From assembly GCA_902619835.1 (NCBI GenBank), contig CACNFS010000001.1, positions 1 to 64,000 on the forward strand: a stretch of DNA of 64,000 nucleotides, in the 5' to 3' direction. The DNA comes from an uncultured Pelagibacteraceae bacterium. Lineage in GTDB: Bacteria > Pseudomonadota > Alphaproteobacteria > Pelagibacterales > Pelagibacteraceae. Under the pieces are notes generated by a model that was not told where the DNA came from, did not search any database, and was given only the letters and a program-made list of their open reading frames with translations. Shown here one piece after another: positions 6,987 to 25,399 of this stretch; the first letter of the stretch is position 1, and every line of letters begins with the position of its first letter. Position numbers and translations under genes: made by a program.

Positions 6987-7913
6987 TTAAGCGCTTGCAG
7001 CTATTTTAATAGATTGACCTGTATTTATTTTTTCTGGAATAACAATATCTTTTATTTCTAGGTCTACAAAGTTAGTATTAGATTTAAATAGTTTTTTCAA
7101 AAATAAATTGGACAATTCATGTCCGCCTTGTTTGCAAATAACTTTTCCTAATATCCTATTTCCAGATAGTAAAAAGTCTCCTGCTAAATCCAAAATTTTA
7201 TGATTCACAAATTCTTTACTATTTCTAAGACCGCTTTTATTAAGTACTTTATTTTTATCTACAACAATTGCATTTTCTAAAGAGCCACCTTTTGCAAGTC
7301 CCATTTTTTTGATTTTTTCAATATCTTCAAATAAACAAAATGTTCTAGATTTATAAATGTCTTGTAGATCGTCTTTACTGAAATTTATTGAATTGCTTTG
7401 AGTTCCAATTATTTCATTCTTGTAGTTTAAATGAAACTCAACCTCAAATGTATTTGGGTTGGGCTCAATTGAAATTTTTCTTTCCCCGTCAGTAAGTTCT
7501 ACTTTGTTAAGAATTTTAATATATTTTCTTTTTTTTGAAAGTTTTTTTATCTCTGCTTTTTTTAAAATTTCTATAAAATCATAAGCTGAGCCATCCATAA
7601 TTGGAACTTCTTCATTGTTAATCTCTATAATCGCATTATCAATTTCTGATATATAAAGCGCTGCAAGTAAATGTTCAACGGTTGAAACTTTTACCCCATA
7701 TTCATTTTCTAAAGTTGTACAAAGCTTAGCTGAAGATACATTCTTATAATCAGCTTTAACTGTATTTTTATTTTTTAAATCAATTCTTTTAAAAATAATT
7801 CCACAGTCCTCGTTTGCTGGATGAATAATTACCTTCGATTTCTTTCCAGTATGCAGGCCCACGCCTTGAAAATTAACAGATTTTTTAATAGTTTTTTGGT
7901 GAATTTCTAACAT
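6987..7913 (-). CDS. lpxC: UDP-3-O-acyl-N-acetylglucosamine deacetylase LpxC
   Basis: Zinc amidase for the committed step of lipid A synthesis, in the cytoplasm. Motifs: N-terminal QGVGLHTGKK, STVEHLLAAL with the general base Glu and a zinc His, and HKILDLAGDFLLSGN carrying the second zinc His and the zinc Asp. I place the start at the ATG at 7913 (308 residues, MLEIHQKTIKKS), because this aligns with the usual N-terminus two residues off E. coli LpxC (305). The frame stays open to 7976, but that extension is not family-like. LpxC following the dcw genes is also the arrangement in E. coli. The presence of lpxC implies lipid A-based LPS. Confidence 0.96.
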   Translation of the reverse strand: MLEIHQKTIKKSVNFQGVGLHTGKKSKVIIHPANEDCGIIFKRIDLKNKNTVKADYKNVSSAKLCTTLENEYGVKVSTVEHLLAALYISEIDNAIIEINNEEVPIMDGSAYDFIEILKKAEIKKLSKKRKYIKILNKVELTDGERKISIEPNPNTFEVEFHLNYKNEIIGTQSNSINFSKDDLQDIYKSRTFCLFEDIEKIKKMGLAKGGSLENAIVVDKNKVLNKSGLRNSKEFVNHKILDLAGDFLLSGNRILGKVICKQGGHELSNLFLKKLFKSNTNFVDLEIKDIVIPEKINTGQSIKIAASA

Positions 7914-7978
7914 TCGTAGGTTTATACATAAATTGTATCTAGCAATTAAAACAACTAATGTTTCTAAAAATAACAATA

Positions 7979-9175
7979 TTAATTAAAGATAAGATCAAAT
8001 AATCTTGAAATTATTGATTTTTTTTCAGGGGTAAAAGGAATAGCCTCCCTTTTCCACCCATATTGAACAATTTTAAATGCGTTCTCAAGAAAGCTTTCAG
8101 GATCAGCGTCCTTTAAAAAATTTACTTTAAATTTTTCATTCATTGAAAAAGAAGATTTGTAATTATCATCAAACCATTTCGAAATTAATTTATCTTTTAA
8201 AGCAATAAAAATTGTAGTTTCTTTTTTAAGAAAATTAACAATATTTATATTTTTTGTAATAGTAATTTCAGAAATTTCTTGAATTCGAGCTTTTGCTATT
8301 TCTAAGATTAATGACTTTTTGATTTTTCTAAAACTATAATCTTCAAAAAATTCTTTCTCGATAAATTCATCATTTATTTTTTTTTTTGTAAATTTTGAAT
8401 TAATCAATATCTTTTCAACTATTTCAGTATTCAAACCAATTACTTTTGAAATATCATTAATTATTAAATTTGAACCAAATTTAAAATTCTGCTCAAACTT
8501 AATTGATGAATTTTCAAAATAAATTATTTTTATATTATTCAAATTTATATTTACCCTAAAAAAAGTTTCAATGCTTTGATGGTCATTCATAATTTTTGTT
8601 CCCTCAAGAAAATTTTTTGAAATAATTTTATTTATTCTTAAATTACATTTTTTAAAAATATTTTCTAAATTTTTGTAATCGTTTATATTCATCAAAAGAA
8701 AAGATAGTTCTTGAGAATATAAATTTCCAAAAAGTCCGATTGGTAAATTTTCAGTCTTGTTTTTATCTAATAAATATTTTGAACTAAAAATATGTATTAT
8801 TTTTTTTTCATTTTCAATTTCGTTTATTTTAGATTTTAACGAATTTAATATATAAGTAACGTTTTCTTTGAGCAATTGTGATCCGTTAAGTTTTTTGAAA
8901 CCCGAATAATTTATTATAGAACATTCAAAATTATCTATTATTAAGATCGCTTCTTTAAATATTAAATTTAGTTTTTGTTCAATTAAGTAAATATTTTTTT
9001 TAAGTGTAGTATAAATTAATTCATAATCTATAATTTTATTATCAATGATCCCTTTAACGGGCGTAGAATAATAGTGTAAAAGTTTTTTACTTTTTTTTTC
9101 ATCATTTAAATAAACTGAAAAAATAAACTCGAAATTATTTATTTCAATGAATAAAATTTTCGAAACATTTCTCAT
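7979..9175 (-). CDS. ftsA: Divergent FtsA-like division protein
   Basis: FtsA is the actin-like protein that anchors FtsZ to the membrane and recruits the late divisome. This 398-residue protein is in the ftsA slot (ftsQ, here, lpxC), has FtsA length (about 420) and the general FtsA order: a strand at 6-11, a PVKGIIDNKII segment, an SHS2-like insert around 85-165 with LPIGLFG, and a C-terminal amphipathic tail (KKSIISRLFDLIFN) of the type that targets FtsA to membrane. The nucleotide-binding signatures are not recognisable: the usual DIGTT-like phosphate-1 loop reads IEINNFEF, the GGGTTD phosphate-2 motif reads IIYFENSS, and no adenosine-type TGGA motif is seen. Identity therefore leans on position and layout. 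It may be a degenerate, non-ATP-binding FtsA. Confidence 0.72.
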   Translation of the reverse strand: MRNVSKILFIEINNFEFIFSVYLNDEKKSKKLLHYYSTPVKGIIDNKIIDYELIYTTLKKNIYLIEQKLNLIFKEAILIIDNFECSIINYSGFKKLNGSQLLKENVTYILNSLKSKINEIENEKKIIHIFSSKYLLDKNKTENLPIGLFGNLYSQELSFLLMNINDYKNLENIFKKCNLRINKIISKNFLEGTKIMNDHQSIETFFRVNINLNNIKIIYFENSSIKFEQNFKFGSNLIINDISKVIGLNTEIVEKILINSKFTKKKINDEFIEKEFFEDYSFRKIKKSLILEIAKARIQEISEITITKNINIVNFLKKETTIFIALKDKLISKWFDDNYKSSFSMNEKFKVNFLKDADPESFLENAFKIVQYGWKREAIPFTPEKKSIISRLFDLIFN

Positions 9176-9178
9176 AAT

Positions 9179-9838
9179 TTACTTTAGAATAAGTTGACCA
9201 TTGATTCTATAATCAAATATTTCATATTTTTTAAAATTATTTTGATCCCTAATACTTAAAAAATTTATAAGAACTTGATTGTAGTTTTTTGGTGGTAATT
9301 TTAAAGTTTGATTAAAAATAGTAATTAGATCCCATCTATTAGACTCAAAAAAATAGCATGCTTTTATTTCATTAAAAGGGAAATTAATTTTTTCTAAATT
9401 TTGATAAAATTTTTTAAAGTTATCTTTATTGCTAAATACTACTGGTAGATTTCTGAATTTTTCTGACTCAAAAAAATTAATTACATCACCATTTGTAGTA
9501 TAATAATTTTTTTCTTTTTTATTTTGTAAGATTGCTATAGGTTTCTTTTCAAAAATTTTAATTTTTATCCTATCTGGATAAATTTTCTTTATTTCATAAC
9601 TTTCGATTAAGTCAATTTCACTTAACTTTGAATTTATATTTTTTTTAGATAAAAAAAAAAGATTAGTTTCATATAAAAAAGATAGCTTTTTAGTTATAGT
9701 TCCATCATTTAAAATTGAATTGTTCTCTACTGAAATATTTTTAATGTTATGATTAAATCTAAATTTTAAACTATCTTGGATTTTATAAGTGCTAAAAAGC
9801 ACCAGTAATATAAGAGCAATGATAAACCTTTTTTTCAT
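9179..9838 (-). CDS. ftsQ: Cell division protein FtsQ
   Basis: Bitopic inner-membrane protein linking early and late divisome parts. The 219-residue product has a basic N-terminus, one membrane segment at about 5-22 (IIALILLVLFSTYKI), then a POTRA-like domain (about 30-100, ending near IKIKIFEKKPIAILQN) and the FtsQ beta domain with the pattern YTTNGDVINF and a C-terminal YRINGQL. It is shorter than most FtsQ proteins (240-300), mainly because the cytoplasmic tail is almost absent. Sequence similarity is low, as usual for FtsQ, so the place between ddl and ftsA carries much weight. Its ATG overlaps the end of ddl by 4 bp. Confidence 0.88.
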   Translation of the reverse strand: MKKRFIIALILLVLFSTYKIQDSLKFRFNHNIKNISVENNSILNDGTITKKLSFLYETNLFFLSKKNINSKLSEIDLIESYEIKKIYPDRIKIKIFEKKPIAILQNKKEKNYYTTNGDVINFFESEKFRNLPVVFSNKDNFKKFYQNLEKINFPFNEIKACYFFESNRWDLITIFNQTLKLPPKNYNQVLINFLSIRDQNNFKKYEIFDYRINGQLILK

Positions 9839-17621: not shown

Positions 17622-20387
17622 TTAATACCCCTTTATCATTTTTTTACTTATATTATTAAGTCCTGTAGCATTTGATCCTTTAATCATAAGGTAATCATTA
17701 TCAGATATAATATTATTTAAAGTAAAATCTATATCTTCATCTACCTGAAAAATATTTCCTCGCTTATTTTTATTGATATTTTTGTATGTAATGAGAGTTT
17801 TATTGCCCTTAATGAATACTTTATCTATATCCGAATTGTTAATAACTTTTGAAATATTTTTATGTAATTTCTCTGATTTTTTACCCAACTCAAGCATATC
17901 ACCTAATAATAAATATTTTTTAAATTTATTCTTTTTTATAGAGTTAAAATTTTTAATAGCATTTTTGACTGAAAGCGGATTAGCGTTGTAGCTTTCGTCA
18001 ATAAGGTTAAAATTTTTTTTATATCTTTTAACCTTATGTACTTTTCCTCTACCTTCGGTTAGCTCATATTTATTAAAACTTTCTATAACTTTATCAAAAT
18101 TTAAGTTCATTACTTTCAATAAAGCCAAAGATGATAGTGCATTAAGGATATTCATATTATTCATATTTATGCTTAGAACTTTTTTTTTAATTTTTACTTT
18201 AAGTAAAATTTTTTCTCCTTTCTTAAAAATTTTAATTGGAAAAATATCAGATTTTTTATTCATCCCAAAAGAAACTATCTTGAGATTTTTAATTTTGGCT
18301 CTTTTTGCAAAGTAATTATAATATTTATCGTCTCGATTTAATATTATTGTACCTTTTTCTTGAATGTTATTAATTATTTCTCCTTTTGCCTTAGCTATAC
18401 CCTTTAAATTTTTGAAGTTTTCAATATGTGCTTCACCTACATTAGTTATTATGCCGATGTGTGGCTTAATCATTTTTGATAATTTATTTATTTCACCTGC
18501 TTTACTCATACCAACTTCAAATACTCCGTATCTATTATTTGTGCTTAACAAAGATAAACTTAAGGGTACGCCATAATGGTTATTGTAAGATTTCGGAGAA
18601 CAAAATGTTTTTCCAAAATTTTTTAATAATTCATTAATTAAATTTTTTAGCGAAGTTTTTCCTGCACTTCCAGTAATTGCAACAATTTTTGCAGTTGAAT
18701 ATTTTCTTTTTAGAATTGCAAAATTATTTAAAAAATTAAACTCATTTTTAACTTTTATTATAAATTTTTTTGGAAAATTTTTTAAAGTTTTTGAGGAAAT
18801 TATGTATTTTGCTCCTTTTTTTAAAGCTTCAGGAATAAATTTTACTCCATGATTATTTTTACCTTTAATTGTTAAAAATAGATTATTCTTTTTTAAAACT
18901 CTTGTATCAATAGCTATGCCATGAAAATTTTTTACATTAATATCACTTTTAATTTCATTCATAATTTTTTTGTTTTGTAAAAAATCAAAATAATTTATTG
19001 AATTTTTTTTCTTTTTAAATTTTATTTCTCTTATTATTTGCTTATCAGAGATCTTTAATATCTTATTCTTATAAATTTGCTCATTTTCGTGACCTTTTCC
19101 AGCAACTAAAATAATTTCATTTGGATCTGCATCAAGTATGGCGGTTTTAATTGCTTTGGCTCTGCTCCCAATATTAAAACAATTTTTATTTTTGATATTT
19201 TTAATAATTTCTTTTCTAATACTTTCAGGTTTTTCGTTTCTAGGATTGTCGTCAGTAACATAAATTTTTTTACAATTTTGACTAGCAATTTTTGCCATTA
19301 AGGGCCTTTTTTTAAAATCTCGATCACCACCACAACCAAATACTAAGGATATATTTTCAGTATTAGATTCTTTTAATGCTAGTAAAGCTTTCAAAAGTGC
19401 ATCTGGGGTATGAGCAAAATCTACATAAACTTTCACCCCATTAGGAAATTTTTTAATTAATTCTAACCGACCGTCAACATCTTTTATTTTTTTAATTGAA
19501 CTTAAAATTTTTTTTTCACTTAAATTCAAGATTTTTGCAGCTTCTATTGCCATTGAAAGATTTTTTAATTGGAAATCATTTAAATTAAAATTTTCAATTT
19601 TATTTAATTTATCTTTCGTAGAATTTATATCAATTAATCGAAATCCTCTTTTTTTTGAAATTTTTTTTAAAATTTTAAATTCATTTAAAAATTTATCAGA
19701 AATCACTGATTTATTTTTTGATAAAATTCTATTAAACAACATCAGTTTAGAATTTAAATAGTTCTTCATATTTTTATGATAATCCAAATGATCTTGGCTA
19801 AAGTTAGTAAAAACTCCAGCTTTTAAATTTATATGATCAATTCTATGTTGATTTAAACCGTGGCTAGAAGCCTCAATTATTACATTTTCTATTTTATTTT
19901 TTTTGATATTTTCAAGTATCTTATGAGTTAAAATAGGATCGGGTGAAGTTAGGTCAGTATTAATTTTTTTTTTCCTAAATTTGACTCCTAAAGTTCCAAT
20001 ATAGGCAACTGGAATCTTATTAATATTTAAAATCTGATAAAATAAGTCAGCTACAGATGTTTTACCGTTTGTTCCCGTGACAGCTATAATATTATTTGGT
20101 TTTAATTTGTAATATTTAGATGAAACTTCGCTTAAAAAATGTCTTACATTTAATTTTTTAATTATTAGAGCTGACTTGCTTCGATATTTACAGTTTTTAG
20201 AACAAATTACTACTGAAGCTCCATTTAAAATCGCCTCATCAATAAATCTTTCTCCATTAAATTTTCTTCCATTAATGGCAAAAAAAATAAATCCCTTTTG
20301 AATTTTTTTACTATTAGTTGATAAACCATGTATCCTGATATTTTTTTTTTCTGCAGGAAGATGATTAATTAGTTTTTTCAGCAACAT
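17622..20387 (-). CDS. murE-murF: Fused MurE-MurF ligase (tripeptide and pentapeptide synthases)
   Basis: One 921-residue frame carries two complete Mur ligases. The first half (about 1-460) is MurE: TGTNGKTSVA ATP loop (105-110), EASSHGLNQHR, FTNFSQDHLDYH, DFAHTPDAL, and the substrate motif DDNPRNE (379-385), whose DNPR core is the meso-diaminopimelate type. The second half (about 464-921) is MurF: IDTRVLKKNNLF, GSAGKTS ATP loop (573-578), GEAHIENF, DESYNANPLS and LLGDMLELG. The joint is a short lysine-rich stretch without stop or frameshift. I start at ATG 20387; an upstream GTG (20408) is less family-like. It lies where separate murE and murF normally stand, overlapping ftsI by 23 bp. MurE-MurF fusions are known in some other bacteria such as Bordetella. 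Confidence 0.95.
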   Translation of the reverse strand: MLLKKLINHLPAEKKNIRIHGLSTNSKKIQKGFIFFAINGRKFNGERFIDEAILNGASVVICSKNCKYRSKSALIIKKLNVRHFLSEVSSKYYKLKPNNIIAVTGTNGKTSVADLFYQILNINKIPVAYIGTLGVKFRKKKINTDLTSPDPILTHKILENIKKNKIENVIIEASSHGLNQHRIDHINLKAGVFTNFSQDHLDYHKNMKNYLNSKLMLFNRILSKNKSVISDKFLNEFKILKKISKKRGFRLIDINSTKDKLNKIENFNLNDFQLKNLSMAIEAAKILNLSEKKILSSIKKIKDVDGRLELIKKFPNGVKVYVDFAHTPDALLKALLALKESNTENISLVFGCGGDRDFKKRPLMAKIASQNCKKIYVTDDNPRNEKPESIRKEIIKNIKNKNCFNIGSRAKAIKTAILDADPNEIILVAGKGHENEQIYKNKILKISDKQIIREIKFKKKKNSINYFDFLQNKKIMNEIKSDINVKNFHGIAIDTRVLKKNNLFLTIKGKNNHGVKFIPEALKKGAKYIISSKTLKNFPKKFIIKVKNEFNFLNNFAILKRKYSTAKIVAITGSAGKTSLKNLINELLKNFGKTFCSPKSYNNHYGVPLSLSLLSTNNRYGVFEVGMSKAGEINKLSKMIKPHIGIITNVGEAHIENFKNLKGIAKAKGEIINNIQEKGTIILNRDDKYYNYFAKRAKIKNLKIVSFGMNKKSDIFPIKIFKKGEKILLKVKIKKKVLSINMNNMNILNALSSLALLKVMNLNFDKVIESFNKYELTEGRGKVHKVKRYKKNFNLIDESYNANPLSVKNAIKNFNSIKKNKFKKYLLLGDMLELGKKSEKLHKNISKVINNSDIDKVFIKGNKTLITYKNINKNKRGNIFQVDEDIDFTLNNIISDNDYLMIKGSNATGLNNISKKMIKGY

Positions 20388-22092
20388 ATTGATTAGTAAA
20401 ATCCTCACTTTTTATGGCTAAAATTGGTCCAATTTTTTCTATTATTTTGCCCGCTACATAAACTGAATTCCATCCAGCTTCGTTTCTAGAGCCTTTAATT
20501 TTCATGCCCCTATAATTGTAGATCAAATTTTTAGCAACTTTAGGATTTTCTAACATTACCAGAAGTACATATTTTGGGTTTTGTGATGGAAAAACAGATA
20601 TAAAAGTATTTAAATTTTCATTTTTATTTTTATAATTTTGTGATGTTCCAGTTTTTCCTCCAACGTAATATCCATCAATATCTGCAAGGCTTGCTGTGCC
20701 TGTTTCCTCTGTGACAACTTTTCTTAGGATTTTATTAATTTCTTTGCTAGTTCTTTGAGAAATTAATCTTTCATACGATTTTTTTTCAAATGATTTTGTT
20801 ATTTTTGGTTGAATTATTTTACCTCCGTTTACAAGTGAAGCATATACTGTAGCAGCTTGTAATGGCGTAGTAGTAATACCGTGTCCAAAAGAAACGGTTT
20901 CTAATTTACATTTGTTCCAATTAAAACTAACAGGCTGCCCCACTTCCTCTAATTTTAAGTTTGGGCTTTTTAGTAAATTTGATTTTTCAAAAAAACTTCT
21001 AAATTTTTCTTCACCTATTTTTCTAGCTAATAATAAAGTTCCTATATTGGATGACCTTACTAGAATTTCCTCGACTGTAAGATTTTTTGGAAATTCTTTG
21101 ATATCTGAAATTTGGTGTTTAGAACATTGTATTGAACGTGGAATATTTTCAACTATGGTATTTGTTTTTACAATGTCATTTTCAAGTGCTAAAGCAACTG
21201 TAAAAGTTTTAAAAATAGACCCAAGTTCGTAAACACCTTTTGTGATTTTATTTAGGTATTTTTTATCTTTTAAATCGGTTCTCATGTTTATGTCAAAATT
21301 TGGGAGAGAAGCTAAAGCTAAAATTTCACCATTCTTTGCATTCATTAATAAAGAACCGCCGCCAGTAGCATCAAATAGTTTAAGAGACTGTTCTAACTCT
21401 TTGCTGATTAAATGTTGAATATTGGTATCTAAAGTAAGTTTTAAAGGTTGTCCTAAAAGATTTTCATTTTTTAACTCTTTATCAAAAGACTTTTCAACGC
21501 CTGATATACCATAATTATCGTAATCAACTTGACCAATTATATGACTGAATAAGTTAGAGTGGGTATAAATTCTAGATTGAAATGGTTCAAAAATTATGCT
21601 CTTCTCTCCCAGTTTCCATAATTTTTCTTTATCAATTTGGTTAATACGTTTTTTTAGATAAAAATACTTATTTTTTTTTAATTTTCTTTCTATTTCAGAA
21701 ATGTTAAGTTCTGGAAAATTTACTCTAAGCTTAATTAAAAAATTTTCCTTATTATTAATTAAGGAAGGATTGATTGCAGCATGGAATGATTTTACATTCC
21801 TTGATATTAAAGTTCCGTTTCTATCTACAATATCTCTTCTTAGAAAACTAAATTTGTTTATTTCATTATTATTATTATAAATTTCAATATTATTTAGAGA
21901 TAAATGTATTATTCTAATTCCAAAAATAAATATAAGTGAAAAAAATAAAAAAAATAAAAGGTAAATTCTATCCTGAAGAATATTATTTTTTTGTGAAAAT
22001 TTATTTTTTTTGTTAGTTTCAATATAATCTTCAAAATAAAAACTAGCTTGATTTACATTGAGGTTTTTATTTCTTTTTTGTTTTTTTTTCAT
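20365..22092 (-). CDS. ftsI: Peptidoglycan transpeptidase FtsI (PBP3)
   Basis: Septal class B penicillin-binding protein working with FtsW. The 575 residues show a 40-residue cytoplasmic tail, one membrane anchor (43-61), a dimerisation region starting RRDIVDRNGTLIS, and the transpeptidase domain with Ser292-x-x-Lys295 (GSIFK), SSN (347-349) and KTGT (480-483). GHGITTTPLQ is also present. Length matches E. coli FtsI (588). The ATG at 22092 overlaps the ftsL-like gene by 26 bp and the end overlaps murE-murF. No lipobox or secretory cleavage site is evident. Confidence 0.97.
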   Translation of the reverse strand: MKKKQKRNKNLNVNQASFYFEDYIETNKKNKFSQKNNILQDRIYLLFFLFFSLIFIFGIRIIHLSLNNIEIYNNNNEINKFSFLRRDIVDRNGTLISRNVKSFHAAINPSLINNKENFLIKLRVNFPELNISEIERKLKKNKYFYLKKRINQIDKEKLWKLGEKSIIFEPFQSRIYTHSNLFSHIIGQVDYDNYGISGVEKSFDKELKNENLLGQPLKLTLDTNIQHLISKELEQSLKLFDATGGGSLLMNAKNGEILALASLPNFDINMRTDLKDKKYLNKITKGVYELGSIFKTFTVALALENDIVKTNTIVENIPRSIQCSKHQISDIKEFPKNLTVEEILVRSSNIGTLLLARKIGEEKFRSFFEKSNLLKSPNLKLEEVGQPVSFNWNKCKLETVSFGHGITTTPLQAATVYASLVNGGKIIQPKITKSFEKKSYERLISQRTSKEINKILRKVVTEETGTASLADIDGYYVGGKTGTSQNYKNKNENLNTFISVFPSQNPKYVLLVMLENPKVAKNLIYNYRGMKIKGSRNEAGWNSVYVAGKIIEKIGPILAIKSEDFTNQYVAEKTN

Positions 22093-22405
22093 AAATATAC
22101 TCTTGATTTACAAGTTTATTATTTAAATTTATAAAATATTTGATGCTTAAAAAGATTTTTGAAAGTTCCATTGGTAGGTAATTTTTATTATCTAGGTGAT
22201 CAATCTTTTCTTCAATTTTTGAGGGTGAAGAGAGGTATGAGTAATCTAATTGAGTCTCATTTAAATCTTTTTCTTTAATTTGGACAATCTTATTTAGATT
22301 ATGAATATTTTTCTCTAATTCTCTTGTTTCATTCTTAATAATTGAGGTCCCTAAAATAAAAAAAGAAAATACAAGAACAGAAAAAAAAAATTTTATTTTA
22401 GACAT
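22067..22405 (-). CDS. ftsL: FtsL-like small bitopic division protein
   Basis: FtsL forms the FtsQLB complex that activates FtsWI. This 112-residue product has the expected layout: a few cytoplasmic residues, one membrane span (about 5-22, FFFSVLVFSFFILGTSII), then a heptad-like coiled coil (NETRELEKNIHNLNKIVQIKEKDLNETQ) and the segment DYSYLSSPSKIEE, matching the 'dyxxLsxPxrie' pattern seen after the coiled coil in alphaproteobacterial FtsL-like proteins. Start ATG 22405; an upstream TTG opens the frame at 22417. It sits between rsmH and ftsI, the standard ftsL place. Sequence identity alone would not make the call. Confidence 0.82.
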   Translation of the reverse strand: MSKIKFFFSVLVFSFFILGTSIIKNETRELEKNIHNLNKIVQIKEKDLNETQLDYSYLSSPSKIEEKIDHLDNKNYLPMELSKIFLSIKYFINLNNKLVNQEYIYEKKTKKK

Positions 22406-23408
22406 TAATACCTTCAATTTCTAAATATCTTTTAAATTTATGAAATATATTTTCAGGAAAAATAAATTTATTTTTACTTCTAATTGCAAATCGTAGTTTT
22501 GCAGAACGGGAGCGATTATTGGTCTTAATTTCTCTCAAAGTTGGAGTGATTATTTTTTTATTATATTTTTCAAAAAGATAATCATTATTATTTCTATCTT
22601 CAGGAAAATATCTCGATGGTTTTGATTTATTTTTTGAGAAATTGCTGAAAAAATATTTTACAATTTTATCTTCGATTGAATGAAAACTAACAATCAAAAT
22701 TTTTCCACCAGGTCTTAAAAATTTTGTTGCTTTTACAATTCCATTAATTAATTCAGTTATTTCTTTATTGACAAAAATTCTTAGGGCTTGAAAAGTTTTG
22801 GTGCTTGGATTTATTTTGGTTGGATATTTTTTTTTCTTGCTTTTTTCAATAATTTTTACAAGTTCATCTACTTTTGTAATTTTTTTTTGTATCCTTGCAT
22901 GAACTATGTTTTTTGCAATTTTGGAGGCCTCTTTTTCTTCTCCTAAAATCTTTATAATTAGTCTTAGTTGTGATTCGTTTAAATTATTCACCACCTCTTC
23001 GGCAGATATATTTGATAGTCCCATCGACATATCAAGTTTGTCTTTTGAATTAAATGAAAATCCCCTTTTTAAATTATTTAATTGTATTGAAGAAAGACCA
23101 AGATCAAAAATAATCGTATCAACATAGCTGTTTAATGTATCATCTATCTGGCTAAATTTTAATTGATAGAAATTAAATCTATTGTTGAATTTTTCTCTCA
23201 GTTTATTTGCTATTGAAATAGCATTTTTATCTCTATCTATTGCTATGACTTTTGTATTTGGAAATTTCAGTAATGCGCTTGTGTATCCGCCACCGCCTAA
23301 TGTGCAATCGACAAATATGCCTCCATTTACAGGAGCGGAAATTTTGATTACTTCATTCAACATCACTGGAAAATGCGAGTTGTCCAGTGATGATGTTTGA
23401 TTTTTCAT
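22398..23408 (-). CDS. rsmH: 16S rRNA (cytosine-1402 N4)-methyltransferase RsmH
   Basis: SAM-dependent methyltransferase for N4 of C1402 in the ribosomal P site. The 336 residues include HFPVMLNEVI at the N-terminus, the SAM loop DCTLGGGGYTSALL, IDRDKNAI, DLGLSSIQLNN, GFSFNSKDKLDMSM, the insert domain around 130-200, FQALRIFVNKE and the C-terminal SFHSIEDKIVK and RSRSAKLR. All RsmH/MraW hallmarks are kept. It follows ftsZ after an 18 bp gap here, whereas in most dcw clusters it directly follows mraZ. Confidence 0.97.
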   Translation of the reverse strand: MKNQTSSLDNSHFPVMLNEVIKISAPVNGGIFVDCTLGGGGYTSALLKFPNTKVIAIDRDKNAISIANKLREKFNNRFNFYQLKFSQIDDTLNSYVDTIIFDLGLSSIQLNNLKRGFSFNSKDKLDMSMGLSNISAEEVVNNLNESQLRLIIKILGEEKEASKIAKNIVHARIQKKITKVDELVKIIEKSKKKKYPTKINPSTKTFQALRIFVNKEITELINGIVKATKFLRPGGKILIVSFHSIEDKIVKYFFSNFSKNKSKPSRYFPEDRNNNDYLFEKYNKKIITPTLREIKTNNRSRSAKLRFAIRSKNKFIFPENIFHKFKRYLEIEGINV

Positions 23409-23426
23409 TAATTATAAATTTGAACA

Positions 23427-24938
23427 TTAAAATTTTTGTCTTCTTAAAAAAGCTGGTATTTCGAAATCTTCGTCTTCATTATTTTCCGGCTCAAAAAGAC
23501 TATCAACTTCATTATTTTCAGTTGTTTCCTCAATTTCATGACTATCTTGACCTTGCTCATCTGAAAAGAGTTTCGGAGTATATTCTAGATCTTTATTTTC
23601 ATCTAAATGATTTTCTGCTGGAAACGAATCTTGATTTTGTAAATCATTATTATTTTCAATGTAAGAAGCGCTTTCAATTGATACCCCGGCTGGAACTTCA
23701 TTATTAATAATTGACTCTCTTTGATTGTTTAAAGAGTTTTCTGCTATTTTATTTTCCTCTTTACTTTCAAAACTATCAATTAAAGAATTTTGCTCCTCAT
23801 TATTTTTTAACTCATAATTTTCATCAAGCCTTAAAGCAGTTGCTCCATCGATAGAATTAATTACATTATGTTCTATCTTATTCTTTGAAAAAAGATTTTC
23901 AGAAAAATTAACGCCGCCATTATTTGATCCATTAACAACATTCAAGACTGGTCGAGAGTCCTGATTAACTGTTGAGCCATTTAAAGATGTGGCCACTATT
24001 GAAACTCTAATCTTACCATTCATACTATCATCTTTTATTGCGCCAAATATAAGCTCGGCTTCAGGATCTACCTCCGCTCTTATCTTGTTGACAGCTGCGT
24101 CAACTTCAAAAAGCTTAATATCGCTTCCTCCAGTTATATTAACTAATAAACCTTTTGCTCCCTGCAAAGTATACTCATCTATCAAAGGATTGTTTAAAGC
24201 TAATTCTGTAGCGGCCATTGCTCTATTTTCACCATCAGACTCACCAGTTCCCATCATTGCTTTTCCGCTAGAACTCATTACTGTCTCCACATCAGCAAAG
24301 TCTAAATTTATCATGCCAGGTCTAACCATTAAGTCTGTAATACTTTGGACTCCATGTTTCAAAACATCATTAGAAAGACTAAAAGACTCTTCAAAGCCTG
24401 TTGCCTCATTAGCAATTTTAAAAAGATTCTGATTTGGAACGACAATAGTTGTATCTAAATGTCTTTTAAGTTCCTCCAGACCTGCATGAGCTCTTCTCAT
24501 TCTTTTTGGACCCTCGTATGCAAAAGGTAATGTTGTAACGCCAACGGTTAAAATATTCATTTCTCTAGCTGCTTTTGCGATTACATGTGAAGCTCCAGTG
24601 CCAGTGCCGCCACCCATTCCCGATGCTATAAAAACCATATTACTTCCTTGGATATAATTCACAATTTCATTAATTGATTCATCAGCGGCTGCTTGACCGA
24701 TATCATGCTTAGCCCCGGCTCCAAGGCCTTTAGTTAAATTCATTCCAATTTGAATTTTTGCATCAGCTTTGCTCATTTTAAGATCTTGAGCATCAGTGTT
24801 AACAGCTACAAACTCTACACCTTGCATTCCTGCTTCAATCATGGCATTAATCGCATTCCCTCCAGCCCCACCAACTCCAATAACTAGTATTCTTGGTTTA
24901 AGTTCTCTTAATTCGCCACCTCCAACATTAATACTCAT
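23427..24938 (-). CDS. ftsZ: Cell division GTPase FtsZ
   Basis: Tubulin-like GTPase that forms the Z ring. The 503-residue protein has VIGVGGAGGNAIN (19-31), the GTP-binding GGGTGTG (109-115), a T7 loop NLDFADV (211-217) and the full C-terminal GTPase subdomain to about 320. A long acidic, asparagine/glutamate-rich linker (about 325-488) follows, and the conserved C-terminal peptide EIPAFLRRQ ends the protein; that peptide normally binds FtsA and other partners. The start is ATG 24938, overlapping the mraZ stop as ATGA, with AAAGGAG 7 nt upstream. Its place between mraZ and rsmH is unusual; ftsZ normally follows ftsA. Confidence 0.98.
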   Translation of the reverse strand: MSINVGGGELRELKPRILVIGVGGAGGNAINAMIEAGMQGVEFVAVNTDAQDLKMSKADAKIQIGMNLTKGLGAGAKHDIGQAAADESINEIVNYIQGSNMVFIASGMGGGTGTGASHVIAKAAREMNILTVGVTTLPFAYEGPKRMRRAHAGLEELKRHLDTTIVVPNQNLFKIANEATGFEESFSLSNDVLKHGVQSITDLMVRPGMINLDFADVETVMSSSGKAMMGTGESDGENRAMAATELALNNPLIDEYTLQGAKGLLVNITGGSDIKLFEVDAAVNKIRAEVDPEAELIFGAIKDDSMNGKIRVSIVATSLNGSTVNQDSRPVLNVVNGSNNGGVNFSENLFSKNKIEHNVINSIDGATALRLDENYELKNNEEQNSLIDSFESKEENKIAENSLNNQRESIINNEVPAGVSIESASYIENNNDLQNQDSFPAENHLDENKDLEYTPKLFSDEQGQDSHEIEETTENNEVDSLFEPENNEDEDFEIPAFLRRQKF

Positions 24939-25399
24939 AACGGTTCTCCTTTCTTTTTATTTTCCCATTTTAAGTTTGATCTATTTTGAAAAGCTTTTTT
25001 TCTTGCAAAAGCTCTAAATTTTTCAAAATTTTTTGGCTCCCAAATTTGAAAAGTTTTGCCCTGACCTACAAATAAAACACTATTTTTAATATTCGCATGA
25101 TTTAATAATTTTTCTGATATAGAAACTCTACCTTCAGTATCAAATTGTAAATTCTCACTCTCGGATAATACTGAAGTTGCAAAAAAATCTCTTTTTTCTT
25201 CAAAAGGATTTAAAGAGTCAATTGTGTTTGATAATTTTTCAATTCTATCTTGAGAGCAAGCCTCTAAGGCAGAGTGATTAAAAGAGGCGTAAGTTATAAA
25301 ACCATTGTAACCCATGGAATTAAGATATGATCTAAAGGTTGCTGGCACAGATACCCGACCTTTCTTGTCTATTTTGTTTTCGTAACTTGACAGAAACAT
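24935..25399 (-). CDS. mraZ: Transcriptional regulator MraZ
   Basis: AbrB-fold DNA-binding protein that represses the dcw promoter in E. coli by binding phased TGGG repeats. The 154 residues contain two tandem swapped-hairpin repeats with the marker pattern: NKIDKKGRVSVPATFR (about 8-23) and FDTEGRVSISEKLL (about 86-99), the first being near-canonical 'iDxKGRvsvPaxfR'. Length fits (143-155). The start ATG is at 25399. Three TGGG boxes at 25451-25475 overlap the upstream promoter, which fits autoregulation. Its stop overlaps the ftsZ start (ATGA). A frame on the same strand through 25520 is an overlap artefact. Confidence 0.96.
   Translation of the reverse strand: MFLSSYENKIDKKGRVSVPATFRSYLNSMGYNGFITYASFNHSALEACSQDRIEKLSNTIDSLNPFEEKRDFFATSVLSESENLQFDTEGRVSISEKLLNHANIKNSVLFVGQGKTFQIWEPKNFEKFRAFARKKAFQNRSNLKWENKKKGEPL
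24946..24952 (-). promoter_or_regulatory. Strong Shine-Dalgarno site of ftsZ
   Basis: AAAGGAG on the minus strand lies 7 nt before the ftsZ ATG at 24938, inside the last codons of mraZ. It is one of the clearest ribosome binding sites in the window, where most starts have weak or no purine-rich leader. It fixes the FtsZ start and suggests efficient independent initiation in addition to coupling at the ATGA overlap. Confidence 0.75.

Follow-up and report, generated by a model that had tools for sequence, protein, structure and literature searches.

In Escherichia coli and Streptococcus pneumoniae, ATP binding by FtsA plays a part in its assembly, in its attachment to the membrane and in control of the divisome (PMC10213515, PMC5832921). 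Forms of E. coli FtsA carrying E14R, S84L, A188V or D210A did not rescue temperature-sensitive ftsA strains, and A188 is located near the active-site Mg (PMC10213515). Within the open-licence literature, no prior report on FtsA in SAR11, Pelagibacter or Pelagibacterales was found. The stretch of Pelagibacteraceae DNA analyzed here (64,000 nucleotides, hereafter the window) encoded an ftsA homologue that an earlier note, made from the letters only, had described as lacking recognizable nucleotide-binding motifs. All evidence presented below is computational, and the genome containing the window is about 80% complete.

The ftsA locus and its product

The homologue was an open reading frame with an ATG start on the minus strand, with ftsQ and lpxC on either side:

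7979..9175, minus strand: ftsA homologue, 398 aa, nucleotide motifs lost (ORF, TIGR01174, model, structure match)
9179..9838, minus strand: ftsQ with POTRA domain, upstream neighbour of ftsA (Pfam search)
6987..7976, minus strand: lpxC, downstream neighbour of ftsA (Pfam search)
23427..24938, minus strand: ftsZ, 503 aa, 14 kb away from ftsA

The gene order murB-ddl-ftsQ-X-lpxC, where X is this frame, placed it at the position of ftsA within a division and cell-wall cluster. The window ftsZ was located at the opposite end of the cluster, flanked by an MraZ-like ORF (24935-25399) and rsmH (22398-23408), and not between ftsA and lpxC; the distance between ftsA and ftsZ was about 13-15 kb in the other Pelagibacteraceae checked. 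A single 928 aa frame in the window (17622-20408) resembled MurE-like and MurF-like ligases fused together.

The window protein matched the NCBIfam ftsA family TIGR01174 (E 1.3e-23, 83.7 bits) without reaching its curated cut-off of 175.85, and scores were well under this cut-off in every genus member. A phmmer comparison with the solved FtsA 7q6d gave 1.2e-8. The SHS2-like region claimed by the earlier note was recovered as a weak match to Pfam SHS2_FTSA at residues 87-151 (E 7e-4, under the curated cut-off). A profile and an AlphaFold model of the window protein were built from an alignment of 26 genus members. Against solved structures, the profile matched only FtsA. The model (mean pLDDT 86.4, pTM 0.84) displayed the FtsA fold with its 1C subdomain, reaching Z 24.3 to both 7q6g and 1e4g across 353-357 residues. 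Its eleven top structure matches were all solved FtsAs (Z 21.9 to 24.3), followed by the PilM family (17.8), and ParM, MreB and Arp structures were also matched at Z 12-15, as for a two-domain actin fold. Given its place in the ftsA slot, the profile match, the model and the structure matches, the window protein is a genuine orthologous FtsA. The FtsA length that the earlier note gave for this slot was present, at 398 aa.

Three parts of the protein were retained:

8687..8926, minus strand: 1C/SHS2 subdomain, the most conserved part (entropy; Pfam SHS2_FTSA)
8276..8287, minus strand: residues 297-300 of the FtsZ-tail-binding region, with invariant R297 and E300 (E. coli R300 and E303)
7982..8017, minus strand: C-terminal amphipathic helix, residues 387-398 (model; moment)

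Across 93 sequences of the window type (92 distinct; its SAR11 genus and close matches), mean entropy was 1.12 bits in 1C versus 1.77 bits overall. G234, D241, R297 and E300 were invariant in 93/93, as well as in the canonical alphaproteobacterial FtsAs aligned with them. From their place in 2B and from work on Thermotoga maritima FtsA, R297 and E300 are putative contacts of the FtsZ tail; entry 4a2a is titled as a complex of the FtsZ tail with T. maritima FtsA. The C-terminal amphipathic helix, also claimed earlier, was found in the last 12 residues, with a moment of 0.65 equalled in 2% of shuffles, and the helix was amphipathic throughout the genus (mean moment 0.62). The frames stayed open at about 398 aa with 25 invariant columns in 26 genus sequences, and dN/dS among close pairs of the window-type FtsA ranged from 0.10 to 0.34. 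As judged from these alignments, window-type ftsA is under purifying selection. The conserved open frames and dN/dS values ruled out a pseudogene or a sequencing artefact.

Residues at the former ATP site

The phosphate-1 (P1), phosphate-2 (P2) and adenosine motifs of actin-like ATPases were sought at the aligned positions of the window protein:

9128..9154, minus strand: former phosphate-1 loop, residues 8-16 LFIEINNFE (E. coli E14 kept as E11, G16 lost to N13)
8528..8563, minus strand: former phosphate-2 loop, residues 205-216 (E. coli D210 is N209, G212 is N211)
8186..8212, minus strand: former adenosine motif, residues 322-330 IFIALKDKL (E. coli G336 is L326)
8615..8617, minus strand: K187 at the E. 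coli A188 position, Lys in 85/93 (alignment; PMC10213515 for A188)

None of the three was recognizable in the window protein, where these regions read LFIEINN, FRVNINLNN and IFIALKDK, in agreement with the earlier note. Among the 93 sequences, DxG occurred in none at P1 and in two at P2, and GG or GxG in none at the adenosine motif, so that motif absence was not an accident of one sequence. The string IIYFENSS previously assigned to P2 was misplaced, being located just past the P2 loop, which reads VNINLNN. At P1 the earlier claim was only partly right: the acidic residue was retained as Glu in 82/93 (E11 in the window), and since E. coli FtsA likewise has Glu at this position, E14 (PMC10213515), the loss at P1 concerns the glycine and the residues after it. 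The P1 glycine was retained in 2/93 and the first P2 glycine in 15/93, while the replacements of motif glycines differed between species (Asn, Lys, Glu, Leu or Ile) and entropy in the adenosine region reached 2.49 bits versus 1.77 overall. Such variation by species at the replaced positions, chiefly in the adenosine region, fits a released constraint. The P2 loop of T. maritima FtsA is NLGYNFT, with Asn at the D210 position, and this FtsA nevertheless binds ATP; no lone change is thus decisive, and the joint loss is what counts. On these alignments, the conserved nucleotide signatures are lost, and the loss is fixed across the window's genus, though not in all SAR11.

Alternatively, non-canonical residues might allow the cleft to go on binding ATP or some other nucleotide, function having been kept while the motifs diverged. 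The actin fold and domain arrangement were intact in the model, ATP binding in T. maritima FtsA involves a P2 loop unlike the usual DxGGGT, and the surviving acidic residue at P1 suggests that some pocket chemistry may remain. We consider this unlikely, because the P1 and first P2 glycines are so rarely retained, the adenosine motif is absent throughout with replacements that vary by species, and an adenosine region more variable than the protein as a whole does not evolve as a used binding loop would. In addition, Lys at the A188 position and Leu, Ile or Phe at that of G336 would be expected to crowd the site.

N209 and K187 of the window FtsA stand at the positions of E. coli D210 and A188, at both of which variants failed complementation. 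Positions 11 and 187 were Glu and Lys in 78/93 sequences. Two loci of a single clade (L137 and L156) displayed charge-swapped Lys11/Asp187. The two positions covaried only moderately, at z 2.5 and rank 1491 among 79003 pairs, and a single clade accounts for the swap. A salt bridge between E11 and K187 is no more than suggestive, and as a weaker proposal K187, at the former pocket wall, could pair with E11 in place of Mg-ATP.

Related genera and the mini-FtsA

Motifs were also lost in genus g6. In a MurB+Ddl+LpxC tree, g149 and g151 formed the sister group to g1 plus g6, and their proteins kept the motif glycines while the P1 Asp was already Glu. FtsAs of g2, g4, g5, g149-g151 and part of g3 were orthologues sharing the locus and length class of the window FtsA; unlike it, they retained P1 as DxG or ExG, P2 in most cases as DxG, and GxG at the adenosine motif. 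Motifs were recognizable in g2, g4, g5 and full-length g3 proteins, with the exceptions, among g3 proteins, of P2 Asp to Glu in three and Gly to Ala in one. In family f2, changes at P1 and P2 were mixed and the adenosine glycines were kept. Among the proteins shown, those of g1 and g6 had Lys at the K187 position, where other groups mostly had a small residue. Since sister genera retain the motif glycines, the loss is local, and at full length it would most simply be one event on the branch leading to g1 and g6. In FtsA-slot proteins of two other alphaproteobacteria (L220 in G190, 0.6 Mb, and L280 in G267, 1.4 Mb), the P1, P2 and adenosine motifs were likewise changed and R300/E303 seemed to be missing, in an uncertain alignment.

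Genomes of g3 displayed two forms of the gene. Fourteen of those examined encoded an FtsA of 368-391 aa, and 29, in one of which it was split in two, had only a frame of 222-236 aa (mini-FtsA) in the same slot, ftsQ and lpxC being some 690-765 bases apart:

L202:4560-5258, L249:5155-5856, L236:5093-5794 and others: mini-FtsA, 222-236 aa, in the ftsA slot, g3 examples

Homology of the mini-FtsA was to the first half of the FtsA sequence, with an hhalign probability of 99.8% against a mixed FtsA alignment, and the FtsA profile matched 20/26 members. Its confident model (pLDDT 87.6) matched FtsAs best, through their 1A and 1C parts. The mini-FtsA shared the slot, 1A and 1C, and the amphipathic C-terminal helix with the window FtsA, and differed from it in the deletion of domain II (2A and 2B), which supplies half of the ATP site and includes the subdomain known to bind FtsZ. 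A separate gene for domain II was searched in eight mini-FtsA genomes without any convincing match (the best, at E 0.045, fell in a frame of 730 aa), and was rejected. In the MurB+Ddl+LpxC tree the minis were scattered over four places, while they were joined in a tree of FtsA 1A-1C (support 0.998); a single or several origins are possible on these trees, with transfer, several deletions or tree error to be considered. In one complete genome (G086, L226:5260-5959), the mini-FtsA frame was split into 76 + 175 aa near a run of TTTTTTTAAAAAAAA, which may be due to slippage, to faulty sequencing or to a genuine interruption.

With dN/dS of 0.18-0.30, mini-FtsA genes also are, by their substitution pattern, under purifying selection. 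Decay of ftsA toward loss, with little function left, would agree with profile scores under the family cut-off in every genus member and with relatives that have lost half of the protein. It is highly improbable in view of the open frames, invariant columns and dN/dS of the full-length type, and of the dN/dS of the mini forms.

FtsZ anchoring and comparison with known systems

The partner of FtsA retained its tail:

23430..23465, minus strand: FtsZ C-terminal peptide (FEIPAFLRRQKF)

The window FtsZ ended in EDFEIPAFLRRQKF, so that its C-terminal peptide is intact, as the earlier note had stated, and the tail was EIPAFLRRQ or EIPAFLRKQ in all 23 Pelagibacteraceae FtsZs examined. No genus genome showed a second, canonical FtsA by profile, the remaining matches being partial, MreB-like or DnaK-like; this result rests on relatives because of the incomplete window assembly. 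Neither SepF nor ZipA was found in 18 genomes in which control searches were positive, which discarded both as substitute anchors.

The window protein might no longer tether FtsZ and act as a 1C-based divisome scaffold, another protein anchoring FtsZ. The conservation of 1C above all other parts would be in line with this, as would the mini-FtsA, which is without 2B in relatives where the FtsZ tail is nonetheless retained. Invariance of the four domain II residues in the window's genus, an amphipathic helix kept in both full-length and mini forms, and the SepF and ZipA searches argue against it, and we regard it as improbable, slightly more so than a cleft that still binds nucleotide.

The window FtsA is best explained, with a probability of roughly 0.7, as an orthologue turned into a nucleotide-independent membrane adaptor, for which ATP independence, FtsZ tethering and a locked conformation are what we infer. 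With its fold, the partner-receiving 1C, the FtsZ-tail positions of domain II and the amphipathic helix retained, the protein most likely continues to hold FtsZ at the membrane and to work for the divisome, and would do so as a static adaptor with no ATP cycle. The E. coli active-site variants E14R and S84L bind lipid without ATP (PMC10213515), hence lost nucleotide control need not abolish membrane binding. The deletion of domain II in relatives indicates that SAR11 tolerates an FtsA without ATP site, and a small streamlined cell may do without ATP regulation. We lean, by a modest degree, toward SAR11 having dropped the FtsA ATP cycle by two routes: motif loss at full length (g1 type), and domain II deletion in many members of g3, leaving an adaptor of 1A-1C and amphipathic helix whose contact with FtsZ or the divisome would have to differ from any seen in known FtsAs.

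The earlier note saw the window FtsA as at odds with models of ATP-dependent FtsA. This is not strictly so for E. coli; it would rather show that such models are not universal. If true, a natural FtsA without ATP site would reveal which functions of FtsA can be separated from ATP, and a minimal set of parts would be defined by the mini-FtsA. SAR11 are among the most abundant bacteria of the ocean, and division there may run on a non-ATP FtsA. Close genera with and without the ATP site make the question directly testable.

Canonical FtsAs (E. coli 7q6d, T. maritima 1e4f/4a2a, Staphylococcus aureus 3wqt) share with the window FtsA the fold, subdomain order, neighbourhood, C-terminal amphipathic helix and R300/E303 positions. 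The window protein differs from them in the loss of the P1 glycine, the P2 Asp and glycines and the adenosine glycines, and in Lys at the A188 position. PilM and the cytoplasmic domain of GspL/EpsL have FtsA-like folds and form platforms on the cytoplasmic side of the membrane; of these, GspL and EpsL are structural neighbours of the mini-FtsA (Z 11.3 and 11.1). They differ by belonging to pilus or secretion machines with other partners, and PilM has been solved with ATP and ADP.
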